Below the pieces are notes generated by a model, which had not been told where the DNA came from, did not search any database, and saw nothing but the letters and a program-made list of their open reading frames with translations. The translations under genes and the position numbers were made by a program. Positions 19,161-55,073 of a stretch of 64,000 bases of DNA are shown here, piece by piece (positions within the stretch are counted from its first letter, which is position 1; each line of letters starts with the position of its first letter). Source of the stretch: Lunularia cruciata (lineage: Eukaryota > Streptophyta > Marchantiopsida > Lunulariales > Lunulariaceae). Location of the stretch: positions 8,756,974 to 8,820,973 of the forward strand of contig OX419757.1 of the NCBI GenBank assembly GCA_948567375.1, written 5' to 3'.

Positions 19161-19264
19161 TGTCATGCATATATACATTGCTACACAACATACATCACTG
19201 TCAACATCATACACTATGGAAGCACAACTCACACATAAGTCATACATAGACTCTAAAGTGCCAC
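19161..19264 (-). repeat. Element A terminal repeat B2
   Basis: About 104 bp, starting GTGGCACTTTAGAG and ending GACA in element orientation. It repeats B1 at 19,721-19,825 and matches the three B copies of element B. Confidence 0.85.
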
Positions 19265-19266
19265 TA

Positions 19267-19718
19267 TAATCAGATTGCTTACCACTCTCAACTCAACTCA
19301 ACTCAACTCAGATCAGTACTTGATCTGTCACTCTATAAATTGCCAACAACTGGGCATTGATTATAGTCAAGCCACACCTACTAGCATAGAGAATCCAAGT
19401 GACACTCACCGGCCTCTGTCCACCATAGCCAAGAACTCGAAGGCTCAACATCAGAGAAGTGAGCTCTTTGGAGCTCACTTTGAAACTATACCCCTTGGAC
19501 TCGAGCTAGCTCTGAAACCCTAATAGTCCTACTGACGGCACACTTGATGGTACAAACGGTGCAAAGTGACAATGGGCCCCACCGTGAAGTCATTACCCCA
19601 AACACAAAATCTAACCATCGGAAAGTAGTCTTTGAGAAACTGCTGAAATAACTCTAACTACTATCACTAGAACTCCAATGTCCAAGCATCTAGATGCGGC
19701 ACTACAAATGGCGTGACA
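19267..19718 (-). repeat. Element A terminal repeat A2
   Basis: About 452 bp, starting TGTCACGCCATTTGTAG in element orientation and ending CTGATTAT. It repeats A1 (25,656-26,106) and includes an (ACTCA)n stretch just inside its end. Confidence 0.9.
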
Positions 19719-19720
19719 AT

Positions 19721-19825
19721 TGTCGTGTGTATATACATCGCTACACAACATACATCGCTGTCAACATCATACACTATAGAAGCACAACTCACATATAAGT
19801 CATACATGGACTCTAAAGTGCCACA
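19721..19825 (-). repeat. Element A terminal repeat B1
   Basis: 105 bp, element orientation TGTGGCACTTTAG...CACGACA. It is separated from A2 by only two bases (AT), which creates the palindrome GACAATTGTC at 19,714-19,723. Confidence 0.85.
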
Positions 19826-19840
19826 ATCGCCCCCCTAGCT
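19826..19840 (-). other. Polypurine tract of element A
   Basis: In element orientation AGCTAGGGGGGCGAT lies directly before B1. The same tract precedes the B copies of element B. This marks the expected plus-strand priming site and makes B, not A, the start of U3. Confidence 0.7.
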
Positions 19841-19994
19841 GACGGTTAGGTCCCTCTAACTCCAGATGGCCATCTACTCTAAGTATATAGTATACCCTCT
19901 AATGGGCAAAGATCAGGAAGCCGGGTGCTATGGAGCCTCATCGTTAGTTGCCTGTCTGCAATCTATACTATATAAATAATGAACTAGTTATAGG

Positions 19995-21409
19995 TCAAGT
20001 ACATCTAGGTCATAACCATTGTCCCTGAGGAACCACCGTGAGGGGAGGAGTCATACATGCCATATGCCATCCTCTCAAATAGCTATCACACACTAACATA
20101 GTAGCAGCTCCACCAGAAGAGCCACATAACATACACCTCAAGCTTGCACGTACAAGTGCCAAGCTTGGGTCCATAGTACCATCAATGTTTGGGAGGTGGC
20201 ATGGCGCACAATTGCGCACATGATCCTTCCAAACAACACCGTCATGTCCTTCTAACACAAGGACTCCAGATGGCAAAACCTCATGCACTCTCAAGATAGT
20301 GCGGCCTGTAGAAACATCAAGTGTCGTCGGTGCTGTCTGCTGTAGATATACATAGTCGCCTAGATGAAATTGATGGATCGAGGGTCTATAACCTCCTCCT
20401 CGAATGGTAGCATAACATAAAGTATCTCCATGCTTAGCAATCGCCAAGTTCTCAAAGGCCATCGGCATCACTCTCCAAAAGGTCTTTGCCCATTGAGAAC
20501 ATGCACTCATCCATACATCAGGGTCATCCAAGTCCAAAACTATAGTAGCATCTCAACAAATGGCTGTAGGTCAATCTAGATCTCGTCCATAGAGTAGAAA
20601 GTATGGAGAGAAGGATGCTAAGGAGGCTTGTCGGCTGCACCAATAGCCCATGGCCAACCAAGGTAACTGGATATCCCAATCTCCCAAGTGGCCTCTCTGC
20701 AAACCATACTTTTGCAATCCTCTCTTCACCGTCTGAACCACTCTCTTTGCTAAGCCATCTGCCTTGCCATCTACCTCAGGGTGATCTTGGGATGTAGTAT
20801 GATGATCAATCAAGGCCTTGTCACACAAGACCTGAAACTCCCCCAAGAACTCTGTACCCTGATCAATCAAAACCTCAACTGGTGCACCAAAATGACTAAG
20901 AACTTGATCCAAGAATGAGTAAGCTGTCCCTTCACTAGACTTGTCAAGAAGTGCCACTAACTCAATCCACTTGGAGAAGTGCTCCACCATCACCAAAACA
21001 TACCGATGATGTCTCACAGTCAGCGGTAAAGGTCTAGCGAAGTCCAAACTCATGATAGGTAATGGGTGTAACTGTGGCGTAGGAGCATTGAATGATGCTT
21101 TAACTTGGTCACAAACCACACATCTGGCAACAAATTGCTGTATCTCGGTCTGCATACCGTGCCACAATAATGACTCTGGAGTAAGCTATACGTATGCTTT
21201 ACTCCAAAATGTCCTAGCTCCTCATGAGCATGACGGACCAGTCGTGGTCTCTGAGATGGAAGTGGTTCTACTCGCACTCTACCATCCTCCCATACACGCA
21301 AAAGGTGTCTACCTTCCAATCTGAACCGTTTGGCTTGCTGAAGAACATGGTCTCTCTCCTTGGCCCCAACTGTACCACCCACAACACCAATGCAAAGATA
21401 GTCCATCAT
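19995..21409 (-). pseudogene. Element A integrase and C-terminal PHD finger (broken)
   Basis: Retroviral-type DDE integrase. The zinc-binding region (HAHEELGHFGVKHTY, then a frameshift, then ARCVVCDQ) is followed by the core. Its three acidic residues are seen in LDFARPLPL (Asp), LIDQGTEF (Asp) and HPEVDGKADGL, where the Glu of the catalytic block (EADGLAERV in element B) is altered. The C-terminal part ends in a Cys4-His-Cys3 PHD pattern: CMLCGS, CDSYLRGWHMAC, GQWL. The next Cys codon is TGA here (TGT in element B). Stops and frameshifts occur at about 21,170, 20,570 and 20,540. Confidence 0.85.
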
Positions 21410-21433
21410 TAAGACATCATCATGAATGTCTCA

Positions 21434-22950
21434 TTAAACTGTACCAATATCTTCACTCTCTGGATTTGTGACCTCAATAACTCCTCCTGTATGTGCTGAG
21501 AAAGATACCACCAAAGTCTCTACAAACATACACAGAAAGGCCAATGCATGCCAAGCTGGCACCATCTCCTCATCTGTCTCACCATGCCAACGTGCTCCGG
21601 TCTGATCCTGCTGGCTGGGACATGGGTTTCTACTCAACCCATCTGCATCATGGTTCACCACTCCGGGTCTATGAACAACCATGAAATCATACTCCTGTAA
21701 AATCAGAGCCCATCGTGCAAGCTTCCCTGAAAGTTTGTCAGACTCCATCAACCACTTCAATGGCTGATGATCAGTGATGAGAGTGAAGGGGTTACCAAAT
21801 AGGTAACATGGAAAATGTGCTACTGCCCAAACTGCTGCCAAGCACTCTCCCTCATATGAACTATACTTTGCCTCTGTTGAATTATTGGAGCGACTAGCAT
21901 AGGCCACCACAAAATCCTTCTCCTCATCATCATGCTAGGTGAGCACCGCTCCAAGCCCCAACATACTCCAATCAGTATGAACCTGAAATGGTTGTCCCCT
22001 AATCGGTCTCCTCAAAATAGGAGCAGATGTCAACCTCTCCTTGAGCTCTACAAAAGCTCTCTCTTTCTCATTTCCCCAACACCACTCCTGTGTAAGCTTG
22101 GTCAGCTTTGTCAAGGCCTTGGCAATGGCACTAAATCCTCTAACATAGCGGCAATAGAAGTTTGCCAACCCAAGGAATGCTCACACTCTGCTCACATCTG
22201 TAGGCCGAGGAATACGTGCAATAGCCTCCACCTTGGTCTGCTGAACACCAAGTCCTCCAGGATAGATAGTGTGACCCAAATACTCAACTTGCTCATGGAA
22301 GAACCTACACTTCCCAAGATGTAATTTGAGTCCATGAGATCTCAACCTCTTAGACACCTCCAACAACTATCTGTCATGCTTCTCCACAGTAGTGCTATAA
22401 ACCAGAATGTCATCAATATAGCACCGAGCAAAATCCAATTCAGCTAGGATCCTATCCATGACCCTCTGGAACTCAGCAGGAGCGTTCTTTAACCCAAATG
22501 GTAAGAACCTCCATTGATATAACACATCCTTGCCATGAGGATCAATAGCCCAAAATGTTGTCTTGGACTTATCCTCCTCCCTGATTGGCAATTGATGATA
22601 TCCTGCTCAAAGATCCAAAGTACTGAAGATCTTTGCATGCCCAATCGCATCAAAAATCTCCTTCGGTGTAGGCATGGCATACCGATCAGCCCTGGTCTGT
22701 CGGTTGATAGGACGGTAATCTCCACACATCTACCTATCTGTATAGTTGCCATGCATATCCTTCTTGGCTGGCATCACTGTCGCTGATGCATACTCTCCAT
22801 GTGAAATCTCCACCAAACCAGTCTCAAAAAGGTCACTACTCCGGCTCTAAATCAATGTCCTCTCCATATCACTATATTGATAAGGACGTCAGAAAATTGG
22901 TGTGTTGCTAGTCAGCTCAATCCGTATACCAAGTCCCTTTAGAGCACCCA
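21434..22950 (-). pseudogene. Element A reverse transcriptase and RNase H (broken)
   Basis: Gypsy-type RT with the active-site motif CYIDDILVYS (about 22,420), QWRFLPFGLKNAPAEFQRVM before it and VEYLGHTIYPGGLGVQQ after it. RNase H follows (VHTDWSMLGLGAVLT, YSSYEGECLAAVWAV, LITDHQPLKWLM) and ends near 21,434. Premature stops occur within the RT and at the RT/RNase H hinge. Near-identical sequence occurs in element B at 51.8-53.3 kb. Confidence 0.9.
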
Positions 22951-23424
22951 AATCCTTCATACTAAAGGCAAAACCACTCGTGTGACTCCTCAAGAACCTC
23001 CAAACCCTCCGTTTTCCTCTCCAGTAAGCTTGGGTCCAAGATCTGGCTCCCAAGTGTCCTCTGTAACTATCGTAGGAGTGGAAGACGTACTGAGTGGCTG
23101 CTACATTGGGCCCTTGGGAGCAATAGTGTCATGCTCACGACCACTAGAGGTCCCAACCTCTGTGTGAAAAACTCCCTCCACTCTGGTTGCAAGCTCCACA
23201 CGTCCTCTAGCTGCATCCATGTGGACCAAGGGTGTAATCCAAGTAGCACACGCTCACCTGGATGGACTCCAAGTAGACCACTCTCCCTAGTAGCTATTGG
23301 ATGTGTCCCAAGAATACCATGTCCACTTGGTCCATTGCCCCCAGCATGTGCCTGAATCGTCTTGATAGGCACATGGCTCACAAGTGTCCGAGTGGTGATG
23401 CCTATCAAGCATATCCTACGCTAC

Positions 23425-24440
23425 TCTGCCAAGCCAAGGCTCACAATCCATGTCAAACAATTTAGGTCCATAGCCTGACCTAACACCTAACGCCTGGATT
23501 CCTCTTACACTATTGAAACAGCGGTAATACCGATGCAAAAACCCATCACCCGCTCTCTCTCATCAGCGTTGGGCTCCACCAACTGCTGTAACTGTGAGTC
23601 CCAAACAAGTCCAGGTCCTCCCTCTCAAAAAGCATGAGAGCTTGGGAAACTTATGAGTGTGGGAAATGCGGCTCTAGGCTGTCCAACTAGGTTCACCACT
23701 GCCATAGGTAACCTATCAGCCACTACCACTATCTGAGACTGACGCCCAACATCCAAGATATCATCAACAAGAATGTTGTCCAGTCGTTGAATCCCATCAT
23801 AAGCACGCTGTAGAACCTCTTTGGGTAAGAGGTTCGTCCACCAAAGACAAAGATGATGAGCCCGTGATCCCACTTTGGCTGCATCTAACAATACAGCAAG
23901 TCCCATCCAAGAATGGACCTGATGTGTACTTGCCACCACTCTAGTGCGAGAATCACCCATCAAAGGAACGTTCTCCAAAAGGTAAGTTGGAGAAACAAAC
24001 TGATGAACCTGGAGATGTCATAGTATCCGTAACATCTCCCAAGACACACCAGAACAAGGATCTTGAAGACCCAATCCTCTACAAGCACGTGTATGTCCCT
24101 GACATGGCCATCCAAAAATCACCAAGTGAATAGGCCCATGTCTCTCTAGGTCATGCGCCCCCAGTAAGGAAATGTCTGCTAGTAGGGCCTTTTGGTAACC
24201 TCTGACTGCTTACATTGGTAATAACTCCGGATACCGATAGGCCAAGTGTGCCACATGATGTAGAGAGACTCGCCTAGCAGTCTCATCTCTCTCTACATAC
24301 AAGTACCTATGTATTCGTATACCTGCCTGTAACATCGTAGCTAGTCCGGTGCTGATCCCACCAAACAACTCCAATGGGCATATCTCCTCTACTGGATACT
24401 GCCAAGCAATGAGTGTGGTATCCAGGGGGATCAAAGCAAT
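23425..24440 (-). pseudogene. Cytosine-5 DNA methyltransferase domain inside element A pol
   Basis: All C5-methyltransferase landmarks can be read in one minus-strand frame and in canonical order. Motif I PLELFGGISTGLA (about 24,385-24,350) binds AdoMet and is followed by YVERDE. Motif IV FGWPCQGHTRA (about 24,117-24,090) carries the catalytic Cys. Motif VI is YLLENVPLMG (about 23,980-23,955). Motif VIII-like RAHHLCLWWTNLLP (about 23,860-23,830) follows. A motif IX-like region is PTLISFPSSHAF, then ADERERVMGF, and motif X is VLGQAMDLNCLTW (about 23,485-23,450). The domain spans about 320 codons with at least six in-frame stops. It lies between protease and RT. No target-recognition or chromatin-reading domain is fused directly to it. 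The subfamily (DNMT1/CMT, DNMT3/DRM or other) is not settled. Confidence 0.82.
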
Positions 24441-25140
24441 TGCCTTTGGAGGCTCATCCTCACACTCATCTCCTGATGGTACGAAGGCTCCACTCCAAGC
24501 CTACTGCACCAACTGATCTACATGCTGCTGCAATGCCTCCTCTGAACTCCACAATGGAATATCCAAGGTGGATGGAAAAATCCCACTTGTACTCCAAAGC
24601 CGAGTGATCTCCTCTGGTACTGGAGTATCCTCTGCATGGGCGTTCCACTCCAACAAGTCACTAGGCCAAGTAATTGCACCACTAAAAGCTAAAACTGATG
24701 CTACCATGGTCCCAGACTGTAGTGAGCCAAGACAGTACTGAAGCGTATTGGTAGGCAACATACCCGTCCCTCACCAGACTGCCAACCAGGTCTATAAGAG
24801 ACTATCTCCTCCCAATAGTCAATGCTAAAACCCATGGGGTATAACATTGCTCCCCCAACTAGCACATCATATGACTCAGCTATTGTCGCAATAGCCTGAG
24901 CTCTCACCACCAAGCTACCAGTCAAATGACCAGGCTGAACTTGGACAACAAGCTCTCCACGTGTGATGTACTATGTCAAACCACCACCTAGAGATGTCTA
25001 GATCTGAAATAGACACCTCTCCACATTGGTCTTCCGTAACTCCAGACCGAGAACTGCAACCTTCCTCAACATAAGGGGTTGTACACCAGAGTCTAACAAG
25101 ACTCTCTATGGTGTATAGACCTTCCTTGAAGGTCCCACCA
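24440..25140 (-). pseudogene. Element A aspartic protease and linker
   Basis: Directly after the upstream ORF the frame reads RVLLDSGVQPLML; DSG is the retropepsin active-site triad (about 25,095). It continues to QAIATIAESYDVLVGGAMLYPMG, the conserved C-terminal part of such proteases. Stops interrupt it. The linker towards the methyltransferase carries SVLAFSGAITWPSDLLEW and PVPEEITRLWSTSG; it is conserved in element B but has no known domain. Confidence 0.7.
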
Positions 25141-25519
25141 AACAAAAAATCCCCCTTTGGTTATCCAATAGGACAACACCAGGTGTGAACCATGCTCTCT
25201 CAAAGGCCGGTCTAGCACGCAACTCCTCAACCAAGTCAACTCCACTACCAACCACCTCTACTCTAGTAGTAGGAACTGCACCATCCCTACTCTCACACAA
25301 TGTGGCAGCCAACCGGAATATTGGAGCTGGGTCAACTCCTAATGTAAACATATCACTGGCCAAAAGTAAAGGACGCCACATAATTAGCTGAGCCGCCCCC
25401 AACATCATGCTAGACTCAGTTTGTGTAGTAGTAGGTGGTTGACTAGCAGGTAGTCCATCATGTACTCCATCACCACCTACCACACCTTCACTAGGACGTC
25501 TAGGAACCATGGATGTCAT
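25106..25519 (-). CDS. Element A upstream ORF in place of gag, unrecognised
   Basis: Open frame of 137 codons from the ATG at 25,519, starting 137 bases after A1. It contains PTTTQTESSMMLGAAQL, LRARPAFERAWFTPGVVLL and ends at TAG just before the protease. The stop corresponds to CAG in element B, so the ORF was probably continuous with the protease. It has no CCHC knuckle and does not match the gag of element B (42,617-43,640). It may be a replacement gag, the rest of a mostly deleted one, or captured host sequence. Confidence 0.4.
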   Translation of the reverse strand: MTSMVPRRPSEGVVGGDGVHDGLPASQPPTTTQTESSMMLGAAQLIMWRPLLLASDMFTLGVDPAPIFRLAATLCESRDGAVPTTRVEVVGSGVDLVEELRARPAFERAWFTPGVVLLDNQRGIFCLVGPSRKVYTP

Positions 25520-25655
25520 CTGCAATGCCTTGGATAGCGTGAAAGACTAGGGAAACACTGAACTTGAATCAAGCTACCAACGATCCACCAAGCTTGGAGA
25601 TACCACCAACACTCAAAGTTCTTACACCCGATTTCCCTTGACTTCACTTCTCTGA

Positions 25656-26106
25656 TGTAATCAGATTGCTTACCACTCTCAACTCAACTCAACTCAAATC
25701 AGTATTTGATCTATCACTCTATAAACTGCCAACAACTAGGCACTAATTACAGTCAAGCAACACCCACTCAAGCATAGAGAATTCAGGTGACGCTAGACGG
25801 CCTCTGTCCACCATAGTCAGGAACTCCAAGGTTCAACATCAAAGAAGAGAGCTCTTTGGAGCTCACTTTGAAACTATACCCCCTGGACTTGAGCTAGCTC
25901 TGAAACCCTAACGGTCCTATTGACGGCACACTTGACAGTGCAAACGGTGCAAAGTGACAGTGGGCCCCATCGTGAAGTCAGTGCCCCGAACACAAAATCT
26001 AACCGTTGAAAAGTAGTCTCCAAGAAACTACTAAAATAACTCTAACTATTATCACTAGAACTCTAGTGTCCTAGCATCTAGATGCGGCACTACAAATGGC
26101 GTGACA
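25656..26106 (-). repeat. Element A terminal repeat A1 (5' end)
   Basis: 451 bp, TGTCACGCC...TGATTACA in element orientation, homologous to A2. It is followed by TCAGAGAAGTGAAGTCAAG, where the primer-binding site should lie. Only the ATCAGAG core recalls the initiator-Met primer site of plant LTR elements. No B repeat adjoins it. Confidence 0.9.
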
Positions 26107-40675: not shown

Positions 40676-41127
40676 TGTCATGCCATTTGTAGTGGCGCAT
40701 CTAGATTGCTTGGACACTAGAGTTCCAATGATAGTAGTTAGAGTTATTGTAGCAGTTTCTCAGAGACTACTTTCCGACGGTCAGATTTTGTATTTGGGGT
40801 ACTGACTTCACGGTGGGGCCCATTGTCACTTTGCATCATTTGCACCGTCGAGTGTGCCATCAGCGGGACTGTTAGGGTTTAGACCTAGCTCAAGTCTAGG
40901 GGGTATACTTTCAAAGTGCAGCTCCAGAGAGCTCACTTCTCTGATGTTGAGCCTTCGAGTTCTTGGCTATGGTGGATAGAGGCCGGCAAGCATCATTTGG
41001 ATTCTCTATGCTTGAGTGGGTGTGGCTTGATTGTAATCAATGCCCAGTTGTTGGTAGTTTATAGAGTGACAAATCAAGTACTTATCTGAGTTGAGTTGAG
41101 TTGAGAGTGGTAAACAATCTGATTACA
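40676..41127 (+). repeat. Element B terminal repeat A1
   Basis: 452 bp, TGTCATGCCATTTGTAG to TGATTACA, homologous to A2 at 56,690 and to both A copies of element A. No B repeat adjoins either side. It is followed by TCAGAGAAGTAAAATCAAG. Confidence 0.9.
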
Positions 41128-42616
41128 TCAGAGAAGTAAAATCAAGGGGAAATCAGGTGCAAGAACTTTAAGTGTTGGTGGTATCTCCAAGCTCTATGGA
41201 TCATTGGTAGCTCGATTCAAGTTTGGTGTTTCCCTAGTGTGCAGAAGCTTGTTCAATTGATGCAGATTTGGCAATAAGGCAGATGGTGTGCGGAAGCGCT
41301 GGCCAAATTTTGAGCAAAGAAGGAGCAAATTTTGAGCAATGGTTGTGATTTTGAGCTCAAGAGGTGAAGACAAGACCAATTTGCTACGAGTTGGGCTCAG
41401 AAAGTCAAATTGAAGGTAGAGTTGGGAAGCTATTCTCATGAATTTGTGATTTGGAAAAACCCGTGTTGTCAATTTGGCTTGAGTAGAAAGTTAGCGGGGG
41501 ATTTGGCGGACAGCCAACTTTATGTCAGATTTTACGTCAGATTTTGGTTGGAATTTACATTAGATTTTGGCCAGATTTGGAGGAGTTTTGCTAGTTTGGA
41601 GAAGTTTTCACCAATTTTAGAGGAGGTTCGAAGTGGCAAGAAGAAAGGCCTCATTTGGCTGAATTTCGGCACTTAGAGGCTGTGGGCTATGAGAGGCTAC
41701 AAAGGCCTAGAAGGGCCAGCAAACCAGCTTGCTGACGTGAGGCTAGCTAGTTTAGAGTAGATTGTGGTCATTGGTTGGCAAAATCTGCCTTTCCTACTAG
41801 ATTGTGCGCAACATGGTTTGACCCTTAGATCTCTTGTTCCTAGACTGGTGCCCTAGCCAACTGGTCCACCCTCACTTGTTGTCCTAGTGATTGTGCCATT
41901 GTTATCTATACACATGTAATTTTGGGTAGGAGAAGCAGTTTGATCCTATTCTTGGTGATCCTGGTAGCTTAGGACTTAGATACGAACTTCTCTTATGTCA
42001 AATGCCAAATGGTGGCAGAGTCAGTCCCGTGTTGTGTTATGAGATGGAGGGTTTTTGTTTAGATTTCTTTTGATTGGACTCCCTCCATTCTCTACTTCCT
42101 ATTTGTGCACCACATTGGTGTGAGGTGCCCTAAATTTTGAGTGTTGGTGCTCTGGTGTGCTCTCGATAGTGAAGTTGGAGTGATGACCAGTCAGACTACC
42201 TTTGTTTCTCTCCGGTAAGGCAGGAAGTGATGACCTGCAGACCGTGAGAGTGCATGTTATGATGGTAGGTTATAGGTTGCCCTTTCCCCTAGTGTAGTTA
42301 TCTCGGTTAGAGTTACATTAGTGGGTGGTGCTTAGTTGGTATTGGCACTTGGTGGTGTTGGCACTTGGTAGGGCACTTGCGGTTGTAGTTGGTGGTTCGG
42401 GTTTGTTGTTGCGATTACTTGGTCACGACGGAGTTCTTTGGAGATTCTAGAGGAGTTAGCCTTGCAATACACAATGGGTTTACTCTAAGTGGTGCTCGAT
42501 ATCAACATGTATCTTAGGTCCCAATGAGGGAGGAGATTGACTTTGAGTTGGAGTTCGACACAAGAGTTGATTCAATTGAGAGTGCACTTGGTATGTCCAC
42601 ACCGTTGTTGTAGCAC
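41128..42616 (+). other. Element B untranslated leader
   Basis: About 1.5 kb between A1 and gag. The first 110 bases match element A's leader, up to GTGTTTCCCTAGT (41,226-41,238). The rest has only short ORFs (41,410-41,676) and shows no domain. Confidence 0.5.
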
Positions 42617-43642
42617 ATGGATGAGATTTATGGGGCCTCCAAAGGCCCTAGGCGTTACTCTGGTACAGTGGGTACCATTGAGTTCGATGACTTCATCCAA
42701 GAGTTCAATAGTTGGTGTGATCTACAGCAGATGCGGAACCCGACTTTGTTCACATCTTTCATGGCATGGAAGGGGTTGATTCAGCATTTGGAGGGTCCGC
42801 CAATGGATGACTACCATGAGTTTGGGAGAGCTCATTTGGAGGAGATTGAGTTATGGAGACAGTATTGGTCTCCACACTATGTCTCCATCACTTCAGGCTT
42901 GGTGGCCAAGAGTAGATTGGCTGTACCTACGAGTTCTAACTCAAGTAGTGTTGGTGGAGCTAGTGGAGGTGCACTAGTTGGAGATAGTGCTACTACAAGT
43001 GGAGGTACCGTTGTAGGAGGTGGTGTGGTATCGGGGTTTAACCCCATGGTGGAGTTCTTCATGTGTTTGAGGCAGAACTACCAAGGAGTGCGGACTGACA
43101 AGCTGAGGAACTTGCAATAGTTCTAGCAAAAGGCTGGAGAGAGCCTATGCAAGGCATACACTCGCATGAGGCGGCTGATCAGTTTCACTTAGGGAGTTAC
43201 TGAGGCCCAAGCAGTCCAGTTTTGGTATGGGATACTAGACAGGGAGTTGCAACATAGAGTTTTTGATGCTACATTGTTACAAGCTACTTTGCCTACTTTG
43301 GCAGTGGTCTTTGGTTTGGCTGAGCATATTAAGCTCAACATGGTGGAGGAGAGAGTGATGACATCTGGATTTGGTAGGGAGACCTCATCCACGACTATGA
43401 CTTCTTCTAGAGTGCAGCAGAATGCACCATGCCTAGTTGGTTTTTGAGGATAGGGTGGACAGCCCAGATCTCATGGAGCAAGTGGAGTGCCCAGTGGAGT
43501 TAGAGCCTTACCTTCATTTGCAAGTCAGCAATAGCCAGTGAGTGGTGGTGTTGCTTGTTGGACTTGTGGTGGACCTCACCATAGGAGAGAGTGTACTCAG
43601 GACCTTCAGGGAAGGTCTATACACCACAGAGAGTCTTGTTAG
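42617..43642 (+). pseudogene. Element B gag with CCHC zinc knuckle
   Basis: Single frame from the ATG at 42,617 with stops at about 43,118, 43,190 and 43,446. Capsid-like part: EFDDFIQEFNSWCDLQQMR, LFTSFMAWKGLIQHLEGPP. A Gly/Ser-rich spacer follows, then AVQFWYGILDRELQHRVFD. The knuckle is C-W-T-C-G-G-P-H-H-R-R-E-C (43,556-43,596). The protease is in the -1 frame and overlaps the gag frame between about 43,585 and 43,640, compatible with frameshifted gag-pol expression. Confidence 0.75.
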
Positions 43643-44389
43643 ACTCTGGTGTGCAACCCCTTATGTTGGGGAAGGCTGCAGTTGTCGATCTGGAGATACG
43701 GAAGACCAATGTGGAGAGGTGTCCATTTCAGATCTAGACATCTCTAGGTGGTGGTTCGACACAATACATCACACGTGGAGAGCTTGTTGTCCAGGTTCAG
43801 CCTGGTCATCCGACTGATAGCTCGGTGGTGAGAGCTCAGGCTATTGCGACAATAGTTGAGTCATATGATGTGCTAGTTGGGGAGTAGTGTTATACCCTAT
43901 GGGTTTCAGCATTAACTATTGGGAGGAGATAGCCTCTTATAGACCTGGTTGGCAGTCTGGTGAGGGATGGGTATGTCGCCTACCAGTACGCTTTAGTAGT
44001 GGCAGTCTTGGCTCACTACCGTCCGGGACCATGGCAGCATCAGTTTTAGCTTTCAGTGGTGCAGTTACTTGGCTTGGTGACTTGTTGGAGGGGAATGCCC
44101 ATACAAAGGATACTCCAGTACCAGAGGAGATCACTCGGCTTTGGAGTACGAGTGGGATTGTTCCATCCACCTTGGATGTTCTATTGTGGAGTTCAGAGGA
44201 GGCATTGCAGTAGCATGCAGATCAGTTAGTGCAGTAGGCTTGGAGTGGAGCATTCGTACCATCAGGAGATGAGTGTGAAGATGAGCTTCCAGAGGCGATT
44301 GCTTTGACACCTCCGGATACCACACTCATTGCTTGGCAGTATCCAGTAGAGGAGATATGCCTATTGGAGTTGTTTGGTGGGATCAGCAC
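43585..44389 (+). pseudogene. Element B protease, linker and truncated methyltransferase start
   Basis: PSGKVYTPQRVLLDSGVQPL contains the protease DSG (43,642-43,650). RAQAIATIVESYDVLVG is the protease end. The linker with SVLAFSGAVTWLGDLLEG follows as in element A. The frame then reaches ELFGGIS, the start of methyltransferase motif I (44,366-44,386), and is cut off by the LTR of element D at 44,390. Confidence 0.7.
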
Positions 44390-45001
44390 TGTAACACCCA
44401 TATGTGCATGTGTGTGGTATTGTGATATTTAACTTGGTATTACAAATACTTAAGAGATATTATTTATATAGAGATAAAGGATGGTTCTATATTAGTCATG
44501 GTTAGCTAAAGTTAGTCATTGCTAAGATAGAGGGGACCTTACTTTAGAGGAAGTAGAAAAGATGAGCACCACTATTTTGGACTTTAGTGTGTTGACTTGG
44601 TATTATTCCTAGGTGTTTGGCTTTGAGGAAAGAGTTGAGAACTCTTGGGCCCGCAAGCCTTTTTGTTTTGGATTCTTCTTTAGTCCAAGGATAGCCCATG
44701 TGAAGGAATCCTTGACTTAGTGGTTGGGTCAAGATAAGACCACATGCTTAGGGGAATATGCCCATGTGAATGGATATTCCTTTCTACTTTTTGACTTTAC
44801 TTGACTTTTAGTCTAGTAACTTGAGTTACTACGGTAATTAGTAACTTTGGTACGTAACTATTTCACAAGTATATAAACAAGGAGTGAGGAGGTACTCATC
44901 ATCCTTTCATTTGCAACTATCTCTCTCTCATTGAGTTCTCTAGTGAGCAATGTCTTGAGTCTTGGAGTGTTAGCCTTGGAGGAGTATGATAAAAACTCAC
45001 A
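44390..45001 (+). repeat. Element D 5' LTR
   Basis: TGTAACACCC to CTCACA. It is shorter than the 3' LTR because the segment between GGAGTATGAT and CTCACA (about 80 bp in the 3' LTR) is missing. A TATA-like AAGTATATAAACAA lies at about 44,868. Confidence 0.88.
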
Positions 45002-45025
45002 TTTTTGGTTTTGTTGCCGAGATCT
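45002..45025 (+). other. Element D primer-binding site region
   Basis: TTTTTGGTTTTGTTGCCGAG follows the LTR. It resembles the TGG-initial, GTTGCCG-containing primer site common in plant gypsy elements, with several apparent C-to-T changes. Confidence 0.5.
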
Positions 45026-45860
45026 CTCTAGAAGACAAGATAATGTTCTGCGTCCAATTCTACATTAGGCAGAAGGAGGCTATGAGAGCTCACTTGGAGA
45101 GAACATTAGAAGAGGAGAGGGCTGAACTTATGTTAGAGAACCAAGATCCATTTTTATACCCTGTAGTTCATTATGATGTCTTTGACTTGATTTTGTACAT
45201 CTTGTACACATGAGAGGAATTGGAGAGATTGTGTGAGGTGGATTGCAGATTTTGGGGATTAAGGTGATTTTGGGCAAAATCTCAAATTTGAGATCTGAAC
45301 TTGAAATTTCTACACATGATAACTTGGGTTATCTTTAAGTTAGCACACTTGAAATTATTATCAGAGCTACTATGCTCACTGAGCTAGAATTTTTGAAAGT
45401 TGATAGGGTAAAGTGCTCCCGCAACTGCACACTCTCTGAAAATTTGTACAGAGTCTGCCATTACTTCAATTTTCAGTACATTGTCCTGAAAATTTCAAAG
45501 AAAATTCAGTGTGTTGTATTCTACCTGCTGCCACAAAAATTAGAGAGAGATCGTGTTTTCAGAGGGCGTTTTGAGTTTTTGAAGTGAGTGGGGTGGTTTT
45601 GAGACCAAATCTGAAAGTTGTGTGCTGAATAGAAAGGTGTCTAGGCCAAATGGCTCAATAAAAAGATCTGAAATTTTGCAGGGGCAGATATCCTAGAGTT
45701 TTGATCAAGTTTGAAAAATTTTAGAGGACTGTGAGATACTGGTTGGGAGATTTGAGTGACATTGTGAGGAAGGGTCAATTCTGCAGAGTGGAGATCTCAT
45801 GCATGAGGAGTTTGAGATCAACAAAAAGCATGTTTGAGTGTTTAGATTCATCTTGGGAAC

Positions 45861-46298
45861 ATGGAAGGTCATCAAGAGTGGAAATTGAGATTATGCAAGG
45901 TTCCTCAAGGGTTTGAGGTGATTGTAGGGGTGGACTTGAGGAAAAGAGAGTTTACAATAGAATTTGAAGAGAGTGTTGAGAGGATCCAAAAACCTACACC
46001 ACTTGGAGGAAAGAGTGAGTCTAAGTGCTTTCTGTGTGGAGAGAAGGGACATAAGGCAAGTTCATGTCCATTGACCTTTGAGAGCAAGAGATTGAGGGAA
46101 AGGAGAGGCTTACTTGACTTGGGTTTGCATGTTGGACCTTCTTCACCAAGATTAGGAGGGAGAAGATCTAAGACCAAGGAGTTGTGTGAGGTTTGTGGAG
46201 TTGAAGGACTTCCAAAAGGACATGAGTGTAGTGGAGTAAAAGCACTTTTGGAAACTTTGGTGAAGGATCTTGGAAAGAGTCTTAGTACAGCTACATAA
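45861..46298 (+). CDS. Element D extra ORF upstream of gag, with zinc-binding motifs
   Basis: 145 codons, intact. It contains a CCHC knuckle (CFLCGEKGHKASSC, residues about 56-69) and a second Cys/His cluster (CEVCGVEGLPKGHEC, residues about 109-123) behind a basic stretch. It lies about 270 bp upstream of gag in the same orientation. It may be the C-terminal half of a split gag, since a knuckle normally ends gag, or an accessory nucleic-acid-binding protein. The true gag at 46,567 has its own knuckle. Confidence 0.55.
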   Translation: MEGHQEWKLRLCKVPQGFEVIVGVDLRKREFTIEFEESVERIQKPTPLGGKSESKCFLCGEKGHKASSCPLTFESKRLRERRGLLDLGLHVGPSSPRLGGRRSKTKELCEVCGVEGLPKGHECSGVKALLETLVKDLGKSLSTAT

Positions 46299-46566
46299 AT
46301 ACTACCACCTTCATCAGCTAGTTCTCAAGATTAGTGATGGAGATAATCTTTCAACTTATGGATAAACTATCCATGAGAGTTAGATTAATATGCACTCTAG
46401 GATTTGATATTGCTATAGAAATCTTGGAGCAACCCGAACCTTTTGTATTCCCTAGAGTGGATTATTCTCAAATAGTTTTAGTCATGTATATATTCTATTA
46501 GTAATAGAGTGAGAGAAAAGAAAAGAAAAAACATTTGAGAGAAAAGAAAGATAGTGAGGGGTTAAG

Positions 46567-47559
46567 ATGGGGAAACTTCCGGTTTTCTTTGGCAAGGATG
46601 GAGAAGATGTGGAGGCTTTTGTGAGAGACTTCAAGAGAGCTTGCATAGGAAACAATGAGAGGAGGAAAAATGAGTGGACCTCATTATTACCAAATTTCTT
46701 TGAGGATGCAACACTTACATGGTATGAGTCAGAATACCAAAAGAGAGAGAGGAAAGATGTGGAAGAGGAGTCATGGGAGACTTTGACCTCAACACTCATT
46801 GAGAACTTTCTTCCTGATGAGAGTTATGAGAGATTGATGAGTGAGGTTACATTTCTCAAGCAAGGAGAAGGAGAGAAAGTGAGAGTCTATGTGGAAAGAG
46901 TGGAAAAGTTAGAGTCCAGATTTTGCATAGTGTTGAGGAAGGGTGGGGATGATGTGGAGACTACAATGATTGGCATAGGGGTCATGCTCACCAAGAATTT
47001 TGTGGGAGGGTTGAGACCACAAATTAGAAGCAAGGTGAGATATGAGAAACCTTCTTCCAAGGTTGAAGCTATCAAGATCACAATTTGTATGGAGGAGAGT
47101 TTGGAAGGGGATGAGAGTGATTTGGTGGTGAAGGAGGTTGTGCATCCTCCTCAAGGCTACAAGTATGGTAGAACTTCTGATACTTTGGTGGCAAGGGTTG
47201 CACCACAAGTAGTGGTTGCTCCAGTTCTTGCACCTCCACCAAAAGATCCACTTCAAACCATCATAGAACAACTTGCAGATCTCAAGATCAATGTGGTGCA
47301 ATTATGGGAGAAGAGAGAGGTGGATCAGAATGTAGGGAGAGGGCCTAAGAGTTATGGAAACTATCTATATAGAGGAGGCCAACCAACCAACAATTTCAAT
47401 GATACAAATTGTTTTGGTTGTGGAGGAAGAGGCCATATCCAAAGGAATTGCCCAAATTCCACTTACCATGGAGGAAGGGGTTATGAGGGAGCCAATAGAG
47501 GAAAGAGGGAGGAAGTGAAACCCAAGTGGCTCCTAATCCCAACAAAGGTAAGGGGATAG
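46567..47559 (+). CDS. Element D gag, nucleocapsid
   Basis: Intact 330-codon ORF. It starts MGKLPVFFGKDGEDVEAF, a typical gypsy gag opening; LLPNFFEDATLTWYESEY and FLPDESYERLMSEVTFLKQG follow (retrotransposon gag fold). A spacer leads to the CCHC knuckle C-F-G-C-G-G-R-G-H-I-Q-R-N-C (residues about 279-292). The last 34 bases overlap the protease ORF in the -1 frame, which suggests frameshifting. Confidence 0.85.
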   Translation: MGKLPVFFGKDGEDVEAFVRDFKRACIGNNERRKNEWTSLLPNFFEDATLTWYESEYQKRERKDVEEESWETLTSTLIENFLPDESYERLMSEVTFLKQGEGEKVRVYVERVEKLESRFCIVLRKGGDDVETTMIGIGVMLTKNFVGGLRPQIRSKVRYEKPSSKVEAIKITICMEESLEGDESDLVVKEVVHPPQGYKYGRTSDTLVARVAPQVVVAPVLAPPPKDPLQTIIEQLADLKINVVQLWEKREVDQNVGRGPKSYGNYLYRGGQPTNNFNDTNCFGCGGRGHIQRNCPNSTYHGGRGYEGANRGKREEVKPKWLLIPTKVRG

Positions 47560-48335
47560 CATCCATAGATGTGGTTGAGAGCAAGTATGAGAAGGGAGAG
47601 TGCTCAAACTCCAAGGGTCTTAATTTGGAGCTTTTGGCACAAGAGAAGAAGAGAGCTTGTTTTGCAGAGGATGTTCACTCTTCTCAAGGATATACTTCAA
47701 GCAAGGATACTCCTATGTCTACTAGGAGCACTCGCACTTCAACACTATCAACAACAAAGACTCCAAGGAAGAAGTTGGGGATGGAGGACTTCTTGATCTC
47801 AAACCAACAATGGAACTACAATGTGTTGGAGGATGTTGGTAGTCACAAGGCTAACATCACAGTGGGCCAATTAATTGCTTTGAACCCTACCTTGAGAAAG
47901 GAGCTTAGAGGTGGTTTGAGTTCTACAAGGAGCAAGAAGAAGAAGAAGGCAAAAGTTCCAGTATCAATGGGGGTGGTGGATGCCAAGCCATCACCATGGG
48001 AGGCTTGTGAAAATGCCTCCAAGATTGATGTGAGAGTAATTGGTCACAACATCAAGGATGCATCGGTTGATGGAGGATCAGCAGTGAATGCCATGTCAGA
48101 AAGGTTGATGAAGAAGTTGGGTATGACACCCTCAAGACCTTCAACATTTGTGGTGAGCATGGCAAACAAGCAACAAGTTCGACCAGTAGGGGTGATGGAT
48201 AAGGTGGTAGTTTCAGTTATGGGAGTTCAAAATCTCATGACTTTCTAAGTCTTGAAGGATTCAAGCTATGACTTACTTCTTGGGAGGCCATGGTTGAGAG
48301 TAGCATGCACAACTGATCGATAGCACAAAGGGTAC
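47526..48335 (+). pseudogene. Element D aspartic protease
   Basis: Frame open from 47,526 to TAA at 48,246-48,248, continuing in the same frame beyond it. The active site reads DASVDGGSAVNAMSE, with DGG where D-S/T-G is usual, as in some plant gypsy lineages. After the stop come VLKDSSYDLLLGRPWL and GYLRIGPSNHRV, which lead straight into RT. A second stop lies at about 48,322. Confidence 0.7.
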
Positions 48336-49358
48336 TTGAGGATTGGGCCATCAAACCATAGAGTCACAGTTCCTGTGACTAACACCACCAACACTTCACA
48401 TTTAGATACACCATCTTCTGATTATTGGGAATCTGATTCTGAAGAAGGAGCTTCAGCTGTGGACACAAGCATGGAAGAGGAGACTTCCACGGAGGAAGAT
48501 GAATCTGAATATGATTCAGATGTGTATCCCTTGTGTGCTATGGATTTTGCACCTAAGCCAGAGGTTTTGAAGGACCCAGAAAAATCACCATTGACACTTG
48601 AGGAGGTAGAGAGAAGGTTAGCTACCCTCAAGTATGGCCCGAATGTTACCAAGGAGGAGAAGGTGAGATTTGAGGAGATTTTCCGCACGTTCATCCATGT
48701 GTTTGCTTTCAATTACAAGGATTTGAAAGAAGTCACCTTGGAGGAGCACAAGATAGAGGTGGAGTCACATGCAAGACCAATCCGCCAAAAGCAACATCAC
48801 ATTAGCCCACCAATATCTTTGGTTGTGAAGGAGGAGATTGATAAGCTCAAGGAGACTGGATTTATCTTTGAGGTGGAGAATTCAGAATGGGTGTCTCCAA
48901 TTGTCATTGTGAAGAAAAAGAATGGCAAGCTTCAGGTATGTGTGGATTACAAGAAGCTCAATGTTGTTACCAAGAAGGACTACTACCCATTGCCATTCAT
49001 TGATGAGATCTTGGAGGAGGTTGCAGGTCATGAGAGGTACAGTTTTGGAGATGGTTATAGTGGATATAACCAAATCAAGATTGCACCAGAGCATCAACAA
49101 CTCACCACATTCACCACACCTTGGGGAACTTATGCTTTCAAGGTCATGCCTTTTGGGCTTTGCAATGCTCCAACCACATTCCAACGGTTCATGAACAAGG
49201 TATTTGAACCTTTCATTGGGAAATTTGTGAGAGACTTCATTGATGACTTTTGTGTTTATGGGAGCAAGGAGGACCACCTAATCAAAGTCTTGCAATGCTT
49301 GGATGAGGCAAATGCATCACTCAACCCAGGGTGGATGATACTCTTGCAAGGTGGATGA
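48336..49358 (+). pseudogene. Element D reverse transcriptase with truncated 3' part
   Basis: Frame contains SPIVIVKKKNGKLQVCVDY, PLPFIDEILEEVAGHERYSF, PEHQQLTTFTTPWGTYAF and VMPFGLCNAPTTFQRFMNKV. The active site is FIDDFCVYG; the first Asp pair is intact. After LQCLDEANASLNP it jumps to the last residues of RNase H (ARWMILLSEYDYTIEDRSG, 49,345 on), so thumb and most of RNase H are deleted. A 17-bp sequence at the junction (GGTGGATGATACTCTTG) is present twice, at 49,330 and 49,350. Confidence 0.85.
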
Positions 49359-50794
49359 TACTCTTGTCTGAGTATGACTACACCATTGAGGATAGGTCAG
49401 GAAAGAAACATGCAAATGCTGATTTGTTATCTAGAGCCTATGATCATGATGGAGATGAGCCAGTGGATGATTCCTTCCCGGATGAGGAGCTCATGACAAT
49501 CTCAGTCACTCAAGAGGTTCCATTGGAGTACAAGGAGATTGTGGATTTTGTGACAAGAGGTAACTATCCAGAAGGGATGCATGCTAGGGAGAGGAAGGCC
49601 CTTGCAGCAAGATCTAGACCTTACACAATGGTGGAGGATATTCTTTTTCACCAAGGAGCAGATGGTCTACTTCAAAGAGCAGTGGGTAAGGAAGAGTCTA
49701 TCTTACTCATAAAGGAGTTTCATGAAGGTTTAGTATGTGGAGGACACTTTGCAAGAAAGGTGACTGCTTTCAAGATTCTAGATGCAGGTTACCATTGGAG
49801 AGGGATTTTCAAGGATTGTCTTGATTATTGCAAAACTTGTCATGTTTGTCAAGCTTTTGCTAGAAAATCTACATCCACTCCACCACTTAGATCAATTCCA
49901 TTGCTAGGACCTTTTGAGAAGTGGAGAATTGATTTTGTAGGTCCTCTCAATAGAACCCCAAGGAACAATCGGTACATTGTGGTAGTTACTGATTACCTTA
50001 CCAAGTGGGTTGAGGCTAGACCATTGAGGGACAAGAATGAAGATGAAGTGGGTAGATTTCTTTATGAATGCATTATCACTAAGTTTTGATGCCCTTTGGA
50101 GTTGGTTTCTGATAGAGGAGGAGAGTTTACAGGAAGCATTACTACAGCCATGCTACGACATTTCTCTATCACACATAGAGTAACTACATCCTATAAGCCA
50201 AATTCGAATGGCTTGGAAGAGAGAACCAATCAGACCTTGTGCATGATGTTGGCCAAAGATGCAGAAATGGAGGGGGCTAAACATCATTGGGACAAGAGGA
50301 TTCATGCAGTTTTGTGGGAGTATAGGACAACCATGAAGACTTCCACCGGATATTCTCCATTTCAATTGTTGTATGGTATTGAGTCTACCTTACCTATTCA
50401 CTTTGATCTTCCTACCTTCCAAAGCATTCATAGGAGATTGAAGAAAGCACACGGAGGTGATGTAGAGAAGTCAAGGAAGGAACAACTCATGGAGTTGGAA
50501 GAGGCAAGAGCAGTTGCTATGGTTCGAGTGGAGCAAGCCCAAAGGAGACAAAAGGAGAGCTATGACAAGAGGCAAGGCAAGAAGAAGGTGGAGCCTTTCA
50601 AAGAAGGTGATTGGGTAATGTTGTTTGATTCCATTCGATTCAAGAGAGTGCAAAAGAAGTTTTTGCCTAAGTACTTTGGACCTTTCATAGTGGAGAAGGT
50701 GTGGGGCAATTACACCTATGATCTCAAGGAGTTGGGAGGAAGACACTTTGATAGGATTAACCATGATAAGTTGAAGATGTACCATAGAAGGTAG
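49345..50794 (+). pseudogene. Element D RNase H tail and integrase, one nonsense codon
   Basis: HHCC zinc finger: HEGLVCGGHFARK ... CKTCHVC (about 49,722-49,850). DDE core: WRIDFVGPL (Asp), LVSDRGGEF (Asp, 50,099-50,125), PNSNGLEERTNQTL (Glu). The C-terminal module ends FDRINHDKLKMYHRR at 50,794. The only break is TGA at 50,087-50,089, where related integrases have Gly, a single-base change. Otherwise open over 480 codons. Confidence 0.85.
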
Positions 50795-50842
50795 AGAGAC
50801 CTTCACTTTGAGGACAAAGTGAAAACTTAGTCTGGAGGTAAA

Positions 50843-51534
50843 TGTAACACCCATTTGTGCATGTGTGTGGTATTGTGATATTTAGCTTGGTACTACAAGT
50901 ACTTAAGAGATATTATTTATATAGAGATAAAGGATGGTTCTATATTAGTCATGGTTAGCTAAAGTTAGTCATTGCTAAGATAGAGGGGACCTTACTTTAG
51001 AGGAAGTAGAAAAGATGAGCACCACTATTTTGGACTTTAGTGTGTTGACTTGGTATTATTCCTAGGTGTTTGGCTTTGAGGAAAGAGTTGAGAACTCTTG
51101 GGCCCGCAAGCCTTTTTGTTTTGGATTCTTCTTTAGTCCAAGGATAGCCCATGTGAAGGAATCCTTGACTTAGTGGTTGGGTCAAGATAAGACCACATGC
51201 TTAGGAGAATATGCCCATGTGAATGGATACTTCTTTCTACTTTTTGACTTTACTTGACTTTTAGTCTAGTAACTTGAGTTACTACGGTAATTAGTAACTT
51301 TGGTACGTAACTATTTCACAAGTATATAAACAAGGGGTGAGGAGGTACTCATCATCCTTTCATTTGCAACTATCTCTCTCTCATTGAGTTCTCTAGTGAT
51401 CAATGTCTTGAGTCTTGGAGTGTTAGCCTTGGAGGAGTATGATGGAGTTGGGGTTCCTTGCCTTCTTAGTCCATGGTGCGCTACTATAATAGCCATCAGA
51501 GGTTCATCTTGAGTGAGAGACAGGGCGGCTCACA
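50843..51534 (+). repeat. Element D 3' LTR
   Basis: Preceded by the purine tract AGTCTGGAGGTAAA. Starts TGTAACACCC and ends CGGCTCACA, 692 bp. Matches the 5' LTR and the solo LTR at 31,019; the final 80 bp are shared only with the solo LTR. Confidence 0.88.
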
Positions 51535-53340
51535 GGACTACCTAGATTACACCCTTGGTCCACATGGGATGCAGCCAGAGGACGTGTGGAGCTTGCTGCC
51601 AGAGTGGAAAGAGTTTTTCACACAGAGGTTGGGACCTCTAGTGGTCGGGAGCATGACACTATTGCTCCCAAGGGCCTAGTGTAGCAGCCAGTCAGTACGT
51701 CTTCCACTCCTACTACAGTTACAGAGGATACTTGGGAGCTAGATCTTGGACCCAAGCTTACTGGAGAGGAAAGACGAAGGGTTTGGAGGTTCTTGAGGAG
51801 TCACATGAGTTGTTTTGCCTTTAGTATGAAGGATTTGGGTGCTTTGAAGGGACCTGGTATACGGATTGAGCTGACTAGCAACACACCAGTTTTCCAACGT
51901 CCTCATCGATATAGTGAGATGGAGAGGACATTGATTCATAGCCGGAGTAGTGACCTTTTTGAGGCTGGTTTGGTAGAGATTTCACATGGAGAGTATGCAT
52001 CAGCGACAGTGATGCCAGCCAAGAAGGATATGCATGGCAACTATACAGATAGGCGGATGTGTGGAGATTACCATCCTATCAACCGACAGACCAGGGCTGA
52101 TCGGTATGCCATGCCTACACCGGAGGAGATTTTGGATGCGAATGGGCATGCAAAGGTCTTCAATACTTTGGATCTTCGAGCGGGATATCATTAGTTGCCG
52201 ATCAGGGAGGAGGATAAGTCCAAGACAACATTTTGGGCTATTGATCCTCACGGCAAGGATGTGTTATATCAGTGGAGGTTCTTACCATTTGGGTTGAAGA
52301 ATGCTCCTGCTAAGTTCCAGAGGGTCATGGATAGGATCCTAGCTGGATTGGATTTTGCTCAGTGCTATATTGATGACATTTTGGTTTATAGCACTACTGT
52401 GGAGGAGCATGAGAGACAGTTGTTGGAGGTGTTTGAGAGGTTGAGATCTAATGGACTCAAACTACATCTTGGGAAGTGTAGGTTCTTCCATGAGCAGGTT
52501 GAGTATTTGGGTCACACTATCTACCCCGGAGGACTTGGTGTCCAACAGACCAAGGTGGAGGCTATTGCACGTATTCCTTGGCCTACGGATGTGAGCAGAG
52601 TGCAAGCATTCCTTGGGTTGGCAAACTTCTATCGCCGTTATGTTAGAGGATTTAGTGCCATTGCCAAGGCCTTGATGAAGCTGACCAAGCTTACACATGA
52701 GTGGTGTTGGGGAGATGAGCAGGAGAGAGCTTTTGTAGAGCTCAAGGAGAGGTTGACATCTGCTCCTATTTTGAGGAGACCGATCAAGGGACGACCATTT
52801 CAGGTTCACACTGATTGGAGTATGTTGGGGGCTTGGAGCGGTGCTCACCCAACATGACGATGAGGAGAAGGAGTTTGTGGTGGCCTATGCTAGTCGCTCC
52901 AACAATTCAGCGGAGGCAAAGTATAGTTCATATGAGGGAGAGTGCTTGATAGCAGTTTGGGCAGTAGCACATTTCCGATGTTACCTATTTGGTAACCCCT
53001 TCACTCTCATCACTGATCATCAGCCACTGAAGTGGTTGATGGAGTCCGACAAGCTTTCAGGGAAGCTTGCACGATGGGCTCTGATTTTACAGGAGTATGA
53101 TTTCACGGTTGTTCATAGACCAGGAGTGATGAACTGTGATGCAGATGGGTTGAGTAGAAACCCATGTCCCATCCAGTAGGATCAGACCGGAGCATGTTGG
53201 CATGGTGAGACAGATGAGGAGATGGTGCCAGGTTGGCATGCATCGGCCTTTTTGTGTATATTTGTAGAGGCTTTGGTGGTATCTCTCTCAGTGCATACAG
53301 GAGGAGTTATTGAGGTCACAGATCCAGAGAGTGAAGATAT
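51535..53340 (+). pseudogene. Element B reverse transcriptase and RNase H
   Basis: RT start PVFQRPHRYSEMERTLI (about 51,890), GEYASATVMPAKKDMHGNY, active site CYIDDILVYS (about 52,362-52,392), hinge VQAFLGLANFYRRYVRGF. RNase H: HTDWSMLG, YSSYEGECLIAVWAVAHF, LITDHQPLKWLM. Breaks: TAG at 52,192 where element A has CAA (Gln), a frameshift near 52,840, and TAG at 53,177-53,182 where element A has Gln. Leading bases 51,535-51,700 match the post-methyltransferase linker of element A. Confidence 0.88.
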
Positions 53341-53377
53341 TGGTACAGTTTAGCAAGACATTCATGATGATGTCTTA

Positions 53378-54799: not shown

Positions 54800-54968
54800 C
54801 CTATAGCTAGTTCATTCTTTATATGGTATAGATTGCAGATAGGCAACTAACGATGAGGCTCCATAGCGCCCGGCTTCCTGATCTTTGCCCATTAGAGGGT
54901 ATACCATATACTTAGAGTAGATGGCTATTTGGAGTTAGAGGGACCTAACCGCTAGCTAGGGGGGCGAT

Positions 54969-55073
54969 TGTGGCACTTTAGAGTCTATGTATGACTTATG
55001 TGTGAGTTGTGCTTTTATAGTGTATGATGTTGACAATGATGTATGTTGTGTAGCGATGTATATACGCACAACA
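54969..55073 (+). repeat. Extra internal B repeat in element B
   Basis: TGTGGCACTTTAG...CGCACAACA, preceded by the polypurine tract. Its end joins directly to integrase coding sequence equivalent to 53,431. Confidence 0.85.

Follow-up and report, generated by a model that had tools for sequence, protein, structure and literature searches.

A methyltransferase-bearing retroelement in Lunularia cruciata

The window analysed here is a stretch of 64,000 nucleotides from the liverwort Lunularia cruciata (contig OX419757.1). It holds the retroelements A, B and C (Table 1). Element A, a decayed Gypsy-type element on the minus strand, lacks most of its Gag region and carries a C5-cytosine methyltransferase (MTase) domain. 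Element B belongs to the same family and lies on the plus strand. It is split at its MTase by element C, an ordinary Gypsy-type element with long terminal repeats (LTRs), which has matches to Gag, reverse transcriptase (RT) and integrase and none to an MTase.

A sequence-only reading of this DNA had described six C5 motifs in canonical order and in one minus-strand frame of element A. All of these are located at 24374-23460. Motif VIII is damaged and the frame has five in-frame stops (24212, 24020, 23627, 23507 and 23489); the domain is a dead copy of a genuine MTase. The DSG protease upstream and the YIDD motif of the RT downstream are on the same strand, as had been stated. The earlier description of the placement needs one correction. 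The MTase does lie between protease and RT, but it is not part of the pol frame and instead ends the Gag-protease open reading frame (ORF1), before a conserved UAG.

Pfam DNA_methylase matches the domain only weakly (18.2 bits, E = 0.0018). Because this score is under the gathering cut-off of 22, the proposed profile search is borderline when taken alone on the dead copy. The protein search was decisive: of 4233 candidates, 193 are relatives with E ≤ 10, and 120 of these are listed. The best relative is unbroken, covers 100% of the query and is 69% identical (E = 4e-152). The top five listed relatives have a precomputed DNA_methylase domain.

By profile, tree and predicted fold the MTase belongs to the DNMT3 class. 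The closest solved MTases are DNMT3 enzymes, both by sequence profile and by fold, and DNMT1 and CMT are absent among the 55 PDB matches of the MTase profile. Motifs I, IV, VI, VIII and the later motifs are in unpermuted order in an alignment of 24 relatives; both DRM genes of the host genome are permuted. W138, P139 and Q141 are invariant in these 24 rows, and C140, E183, N184, V185, R223 and R225 are nearly invariant. The relatives P0143, P0148-P0150 and P0152-P0155 have ECQ or ECK at motif IV instead of PCQ, with the catalytic Cys kept and the preceding Pro changed to Glu.

Element B keeps the beginning of the MTase up to motif I, in agreement with the sequence-only reading. The remainder is lost up to the point equivalent to position 23246 of element A, and element C begins at 44390. 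Together with the unbroken relatives and the many genome copies described below, element B confirms that the MTase is a trait of the family and not a one-off capture. In element B, the integrase-PHD end is tandemly duplicated (53425-56688, 1.65 kb, about 91%).

Table 1. Features of elements A, B and C in the window (positions of the window).
Feature	Position	Strand	Remark
Element A, whole; decayed Gypsy-type, most of Gag missing	19161..26106	-	Target duplication ACTA at 26107-26110 and 19157-19160
A: 5' repeat A1	25658..26106	-	Starts TGTCACGCC
A: protease motif LLDSG	25085..25099	-	
A: DNMT3-class MTase domain	23425..24440	-	Five in-frame stops
A: motif I, LELFGG	24374-24357	-	Single frame of the MTase
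A: motif IV, GWPCQGH	24113-24093	-	Same frame
A: motif VI, ENVP	23975-23964	-	Same frame
A: motif VIII, AHHLCLWWTNL	23861-23829	-	Same frame
A: ERERVMGF	23561-23538	-	Same frame
A: GQAMDLN	23480-23460	-	Same frame
A: ORF1/ORF2 junction UAG	23101..23103	-	TAG CAG CCA
A: RT motif YIDD	22409..22420	-	
A: integrase core	20571..21167	-	Pfam rve, 41.6 bits
A: PHD finger	20013..20135	-	24.9 bits, cut-off 24; then in-frame stop
A: repeat B1	19720..19827	-	
A: repeat A2	19267..19718	-	Copy of A1
A: repeat B2	19161..19267	-	Copy of B1; ends GCATGACA
Element B, same family as A, split by element C	40676..57245	+	Target duplication TGGA at 40672-40675 and 57246-57249
B: repeat A1	40676..41125	+	
B: protease end to MTase motif I	43600..44389	+	Ends CLLELFGGIS
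Element C, ordinary Gypsy-type, no MTase, inside B at the MTase	44390..51443	+	LTRs 44390-44990 and 50843-51443, 98.5% alike
B: junction UAG	51682..51684	+	TAG CAG CCA; RT frame from 51685
B: integrase and PHD finger	53354..54766	+	PHD 27.1 bits
B: repeats B1, A2 and B2	56589..57245	+	B1 56589-56687, A2 56690-57139, B2 57139-57245

Two reading frames, a conserved UAG and a PHD finger

The host genome was searched for further copies (565.8 Mb in 74 contigs, with 558 of 566 Mb in eight large contigs). A DNA search with the MTase gave 6384 candidates, and the best 40 scored are element A and 39 others at 94% identity. Ten of the 40 copies that match element A best in DNA sequence were fetched as halves. 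They are a non-random set, mostly of one young subfamily. Unbroken relatives from sequence collections served to read the frames. One of these, L002 (CADCWO010000201.1, from a metagenome-assembled genome (MAG) labelled Synechococcales), is a 9.3-kb contig that holds a whole unbroken element of the family and is probably eukaryotic contamination. Its ends overlap by 127 bases, so that it closes as a circle.

ORF1 of the unbroken relatives L002, P0124, P0133 and P0140 comprises a Gag side, a DSG protease and the MTase. CCHC knuckles on the Gag side were recognised by eye; no Pfam Gag match was obtained in L002, P0133 or P0140. The protease match is above cut-off in P0133 and below it in L002 (20.5 bits, cut-off 24.3). 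ORF2 is in frame with ORF1, and RT (RVT_1), RNase H, H2C2, the DDE-type integrase core (rve) and the PHD finger are all above cut-off in L002. The domain order of protease, RT, RNase H and DDE integrase is that of Ty3/Gypsy elements. The rve core is present in both ORF2s scanned, and no tyrosine recombinase match was found at E ≤ 0.01 in either ORF of L002.

ORF1 is followed by UAG CAG YYA in all ten fetched copies. The same UAG CAG YYA junction is also present in element B and in 21 of 21 loci with a match among 25 examined, a set that overlaps with the fetched copies and includes element A. In L002 the junction reads TAG CAA TCA. In tobamoviruses and other plant viruses, the type I readthrough motif consists of UAG and a following CARYYA, according to the available text of PMC5382211. 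By analogy, the conserved UAG CAR YYA between ORF1 and ORF2 looks like a leaky stop and is a candidate for one.

The PHD finger behind the integrase had already been seen in the sequence-only reading. It is above cut-off in elements A and B as well as in L002, P0148, P0149, P0153 and P0154. Among solved structures, the PHD fingers closest to it come from CHD4, a yeast protein, PHF12, UHRF1, KDM5 and others. No match to a chromodomain (E ≤ 0.01) was obtained in any of L002 ORF2, element B, P0148, P0149, P0153 and P0154.

Split repeats and target duplications

The copies are about 9.9 kb long. Repeat A1 lies at the 5' side in 10 of 10 copies and the block B1-A2-B2 at the 3' side in 9 of 10. B1 is shortened in copy c6a, and copy c2a is without A2 and B2 in the stretch read. 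Elements A and B share this layout. All ten fetched copies start with TGTCA, and all nine 3' ends read ACGACA. The B1/A2 junction is the palindrome GACAGCTGTC, which is exact in five of nine copies and resembles the junction of a two-LTR circle.

Among nine copies, 4-bp target duplications are exact in six, have one mismatch in two and are missing in one (c7b); those of elements A and B are exact. The family thus has the TG...CA ends and short target duplication of LTR retrotransposons. Like LTRs at each end, as in Ty3/Gypsy elements, are not found in nine of ten copies or in elements A and B, where the 5' side has only A1 and the 3' side B1-A2-B2. No convincing tRNA match for a primer binding site was seen behind A1 on inspection of the leader by eye in six copies. 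Because target duplications flank copies whose ends are TGTCA and ACGACA, the form inserted by the DDE integrase is probably linear and spans A1 to B2.

Relatives and a second placement of the methyltransferase

Named relatives of the MTase are from Calypogeia fissa, two Sphagnum species, Marchantia polymorpha, M. paleacea, Riccia sorocarpa and an Obscuribacterales MAG. The label of a further relative, P0155, is Mesvir1, which is read as Mesostigma viride. The other collections contributed one distant relative from viral contigs (L001, 34%), L002 as the single one from genome contigs and four distant plasmid records below 60% identity.

The metagenomic elements P0148, P0149 and P0154 have the MTase in a second placement, with the order RT, RNase H, MTase, integrase and PHD finger. 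The sequences of P0150 and P0153 begin after the RT and continue with MTase, integrase and PHD finger. No second-placement element was found in the host genome among 40 rows checked. The locus C7:67156836 was considered as a fossil of this kind and rejected, being a copy of the first kind with the RT deleted and an MTase 93.9% identical to that of copy c10a.

All 28 retroelement MTases form one clade (98/95), in which branches are long and the deep forks are unresolved. The five second-placement MTases form a clade of their own (100/100) and group beside P0143, in which the MTase precedes the RT (94/94). In a midpoint-rooted integrase tree of 8 rows, the second-placement group is set apart from L002, the host-genome element and P0143 (97/98). 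A phylogeny had been called for by the sequence-only reading; the DNMT3 class emerges from a tree with one DNMT3 and two DRM genes of the host. Given the single clade of retroelement MTases in this tree, a single capture by retroelements and a later move between placements is the simplest reading of these sequences.

Abundance, constraint and traces of methylation

To estimate abundance, 60 sites were sampled at even spacing along the eight large contigs. Of 44,000 bases, 4796 match the family (10.9%, bootstrap 4-19%), which corresponds to about 61 Mb (22-108). The matches fall on eight sites, and at two of these the identity is only about 74%. PMC9985172 ascribes the large size of the 580-Mb L. 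cruciata assembly to Ty3/Gypsy bursts, and the word methyltransferase is absent from its available text.

In eight copies, repeats A1 and A2 of the same copy are distinguished by 1-9 of some 440-449 positions, and 42 of these 43 differences are transitions. Copy c6a has 24 differences, including 11 transitions. A 446-residue MTase stretch is open in six of the ten fetched copies and has stops in the other four. In a whole-genome search in which the best 138 of 1294 candidates were scored, 10 of 136 rows had a frame 1428-1431 residues long and a match free of stops.

Nonsynonymous to synonymous ratios (dN/dS) were calculated against c10a for the ten fetched copies and 10 of 16 further loci (L094, L095, L102, L103, L105 and L109 were dropped owing to gaps or partial matches). 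Of these 19 comparisons, eight are below 0.5 (0.29-0.47) and four lie at 0.59-0.78. Five of the more diverged comparisons have values of 0.29-0.36. The numbers are small, and the pattern agrees with constraint among subfamilies that ceases once a copy has inserted.

Over 5.3 kb, 304 positions distinguish element A from c10a, and 206 of them are C>T or G>A changes when c10a is treated as the ancestral state. They affect 83 of 336 CG, 78 of 508 CHG and 45 of 1768 CHH sites (Fisher p 3e-45). Substitutions of this pattern are what CG and CHG methylation of the old copy A would leave, and the host alone suffices to explain them.

Other features of the window

An open frame of 586 residues at 61190-62947 (+) has both FGGY carbohydrate-kinase domains (118.6 and 87.3 bits) and is probably a host gene. 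A MatE transporter piece at 9470-10165 (+; 78.2 bits) is probably a host-gene exon. A 185-base tandem pair, 99% alike, lies at 16895-17264. The Rfam scan of the window gave nothing at gathering threshold.

Comparison with known elements

DIRS/PAT-type elements have split direct repeats A1...B1-A2-B2 and a tyrosine recombinase, and are not known to leave target duplications. The Lunularia family has the same repeats, whereas it combines them with a DDE integrase and target duplications. Chromoviruses are Gypsy elements with a chromodomain behind the integrase. The present family likewise has a chromatin-reader-like module at the integrase C-terminus, which is a PHD finger instead of a chromodomain.

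A DNMT3-bearing Gypsy element with DIRS-like repeats is already published, as KnitGypsy-Dnmt3 of the alga Klebsormidium nitens (PMC5890265, Fig. 4 legend), and the kind is therefore known. The link to an algal retrotransposon MTase drawn by the sequence-only reading is supported by that paper. As far as its available text describes it, KnitGypsy-Dnmt3 has, like the present family, LTR Gypsy domains and DIRS-like repeats, and its coding region includes a Dnmt3-type MTase that is not permuted. The family described here differs in its occurrence in land plants, its share of about a tenth of the genome, its 4-bp target duplications and its PHD finger; the term PHD is absent from the main text of PMC5890265. 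It differs also in having the MTase in ORF1 before the UAG, whereas PMC5890265 places it in the Pol ORF. None of the named matches listed was recognisable as a K. nitens sequence, and the resemblance is one of described features.

The same source reports on SymbioDIRS-Dnmt3 of Symbiodinium, the enzyme of which carried out de novo CG methylation in yeast. This is likewise a retroelement-borne Dnmt3-type MTase, but the element is classed there as DIRS, unlike the present family with its DDE-type integrase (Pfam rve) and 4-bp target duplications. In Ectocarpus, a Sola-type DNA transposon encodes a ParB-MTase accessory protein (available text of PMC12477816). It too has a DNA methyltransferase of its own, which is of the N4-cytosine or N6-adenine type and belongs to a DNA transposon. 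In its accessible part, PMC12344493 cites PMC5890265 for streptophytes and dinoflagellates and names Copia and DIRS, and that of PMC6338049 describes land plants, e.g. tracheophytes, as without transposons encoding DNA methylases. For a Gypsy element with a cytosine DNMT, only PMC5890265 was found, and no land-plant case was met in the literature reached, which mostly excludes subscription papers. As far as this search reached, the land-plant distribution and abundance and the MTase in ORF1 before a readthrough-type UAG are new. Within the same literature this also applies to the PHD finger, the second MTase placement and the joint occurrence of split repeats and target duplications.

Proposed mechanism and alternatives

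We give about an even chance to the interpretation that this abundant Ty3/Gypsy-type family, with its ORF1 ending in a DNMT3-class MTase, methylates its own packaged cDNA. The ORF1 product would be made in excess, and RT, integrase and PHD finger would be added by rare readthrough of the UAG. If the UAG is leaky, the MTase would be made in Gag-like amounts because it sits in ORF1, and it would enter the particle in such numbers. There its target would be the newly made double-stranded cDNA, methylated de novo ahead of integration or while it proceeds. The PHD finger may tether the integrase to a histone-tail state. A junction of the B1-A2 type has been proposed for DIRS-type elements as the template for missing termini. 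Here the B1-A2 junction would supply the termini missing from the RNA, and insertion would be carried out by the DDE integrase. An insertion would thus arrive already methylated, with the cDNA shielded or the copy silenced at once. Early silencing would lower the cost to the host and let the family accumulate. In favour of this interpretation are the unbroken relatives, the DNMT3 class of the enzyme, the conserved UAG junction, the PHD finger, the split repeats with their 4-bp duplications, the open MTase stretches, the dN/dS values below 0.5 in 8 of 19 comparisons and the CG methylation in yeast by the related SymbioDIRS enzyme.

Several observations speak against self-methylation of packaged cDNA or against parts of this cycle. 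Element C was inserted without an MTase, as Gypsy elements can be, and copy c7b has no target duplication. In P0143 the MTase and the RT share one frame without a UAG. The dN/dS ratio exceeds 1 in 6 of 19 comparisons, with one or two synonymous changes in each; for L107 it is undefined, as 15 nonsynonymous and 0 synonymous changes separate it from c10a. With the enzyme of K. nitens no methylation was obtained in yeast, a result judged inconclusive by the authors in the available text of PMC5890265. The observed/expected CpG ratio is 0.48-0.54 in c10a, 0.46-0.47 in the window flanks and 0.11 in element C. Because the young c10a is close to the flanks and the MTase-less element C is lower, there is no sign in base composition of extra CG methylation over time, and no extra CG loss from long self-methylation is visible in the MTase-bearing family.

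The MTase may instead act in trans on host chromatin (anti-silencing, competition or target-site marking), with the cDNA not the main target. We consider this unlikely. High copy number and open frames would suit such a role, and a PHD finger nearest to those of the histone readers CHD4, PHF12, UHRF1 and KDM5 could bring the products to chromatin. The position of the MTase beside the protease in ORF1, however, suggests packaging with Gag, and the methylome of K. nitens is not unusual according to the available text of PMC5890265. It is rather less probable that the MTase persists as a structural or nucleic-acid-binding domain, serving in particle assembly or in the handling of cDNA or tRNA, with catalysis weak or lost in some lineages. 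The ECQ/ECK variants of motif IV and the inactivity of the K. nitens enzyme in yeast, with the reservation of its authors, are consistent with such a role. Against this stands the near-invariance of the catalytic motifs in the 24 aligned rows, and the ECQ/ECK group also keeps the catalytic Cys.

The two placements could be independent gains of an MTase captured or moved more than once. The long branches and unresolved deep forks leave some room for this, as does a comparison set of only one host DNMT3 and two DRM genes. Yet the single clade of retroelement MTases, the grouping of the second-placement enzymes beside P0143 and the same two groups in the integrase tree all argue the other way, and we regard multiple capture as improbable. 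That the MTase is an ordinary passenger, a captured host domain without present use, appears very improbable. The stops in element A and in four of ten copies and the lack of constraint in the youngest copies would agree with it. But the same protease-then-MTase placement recurs in Marchantia, L002 and Mesostigma P0155 at 40-50% identity, and the dN/dS values of the more diverged comparisons speak for long maintenance.

More tentatively, and with clearly less confidence than the self-methylating cycle in Lunularia, the family may stand for a class of plant and algal LTR elements. Such elements would copy themselves through split repeats, insert by a DDE integrase, produce a DNMT3 enzyme at Gag dose by means of a leaky UAG and deliver pre-methylated copies to a histone state read by the PHD finger. 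Self-silencing would then have allowed one family to grow to about a tenth of the genome of a liverwort. The occurrence of DIRS-like ends, a DDE integrase and target duplications together in many copies bears on how split-repeat elements replicate. As a dominant repeat with open frames and with relatives in Marchantia, Calypogeia, Riccia and Sphagnum, which can be grown, the family makes it testable whether a transposon sets the methylation of its copies at birth.
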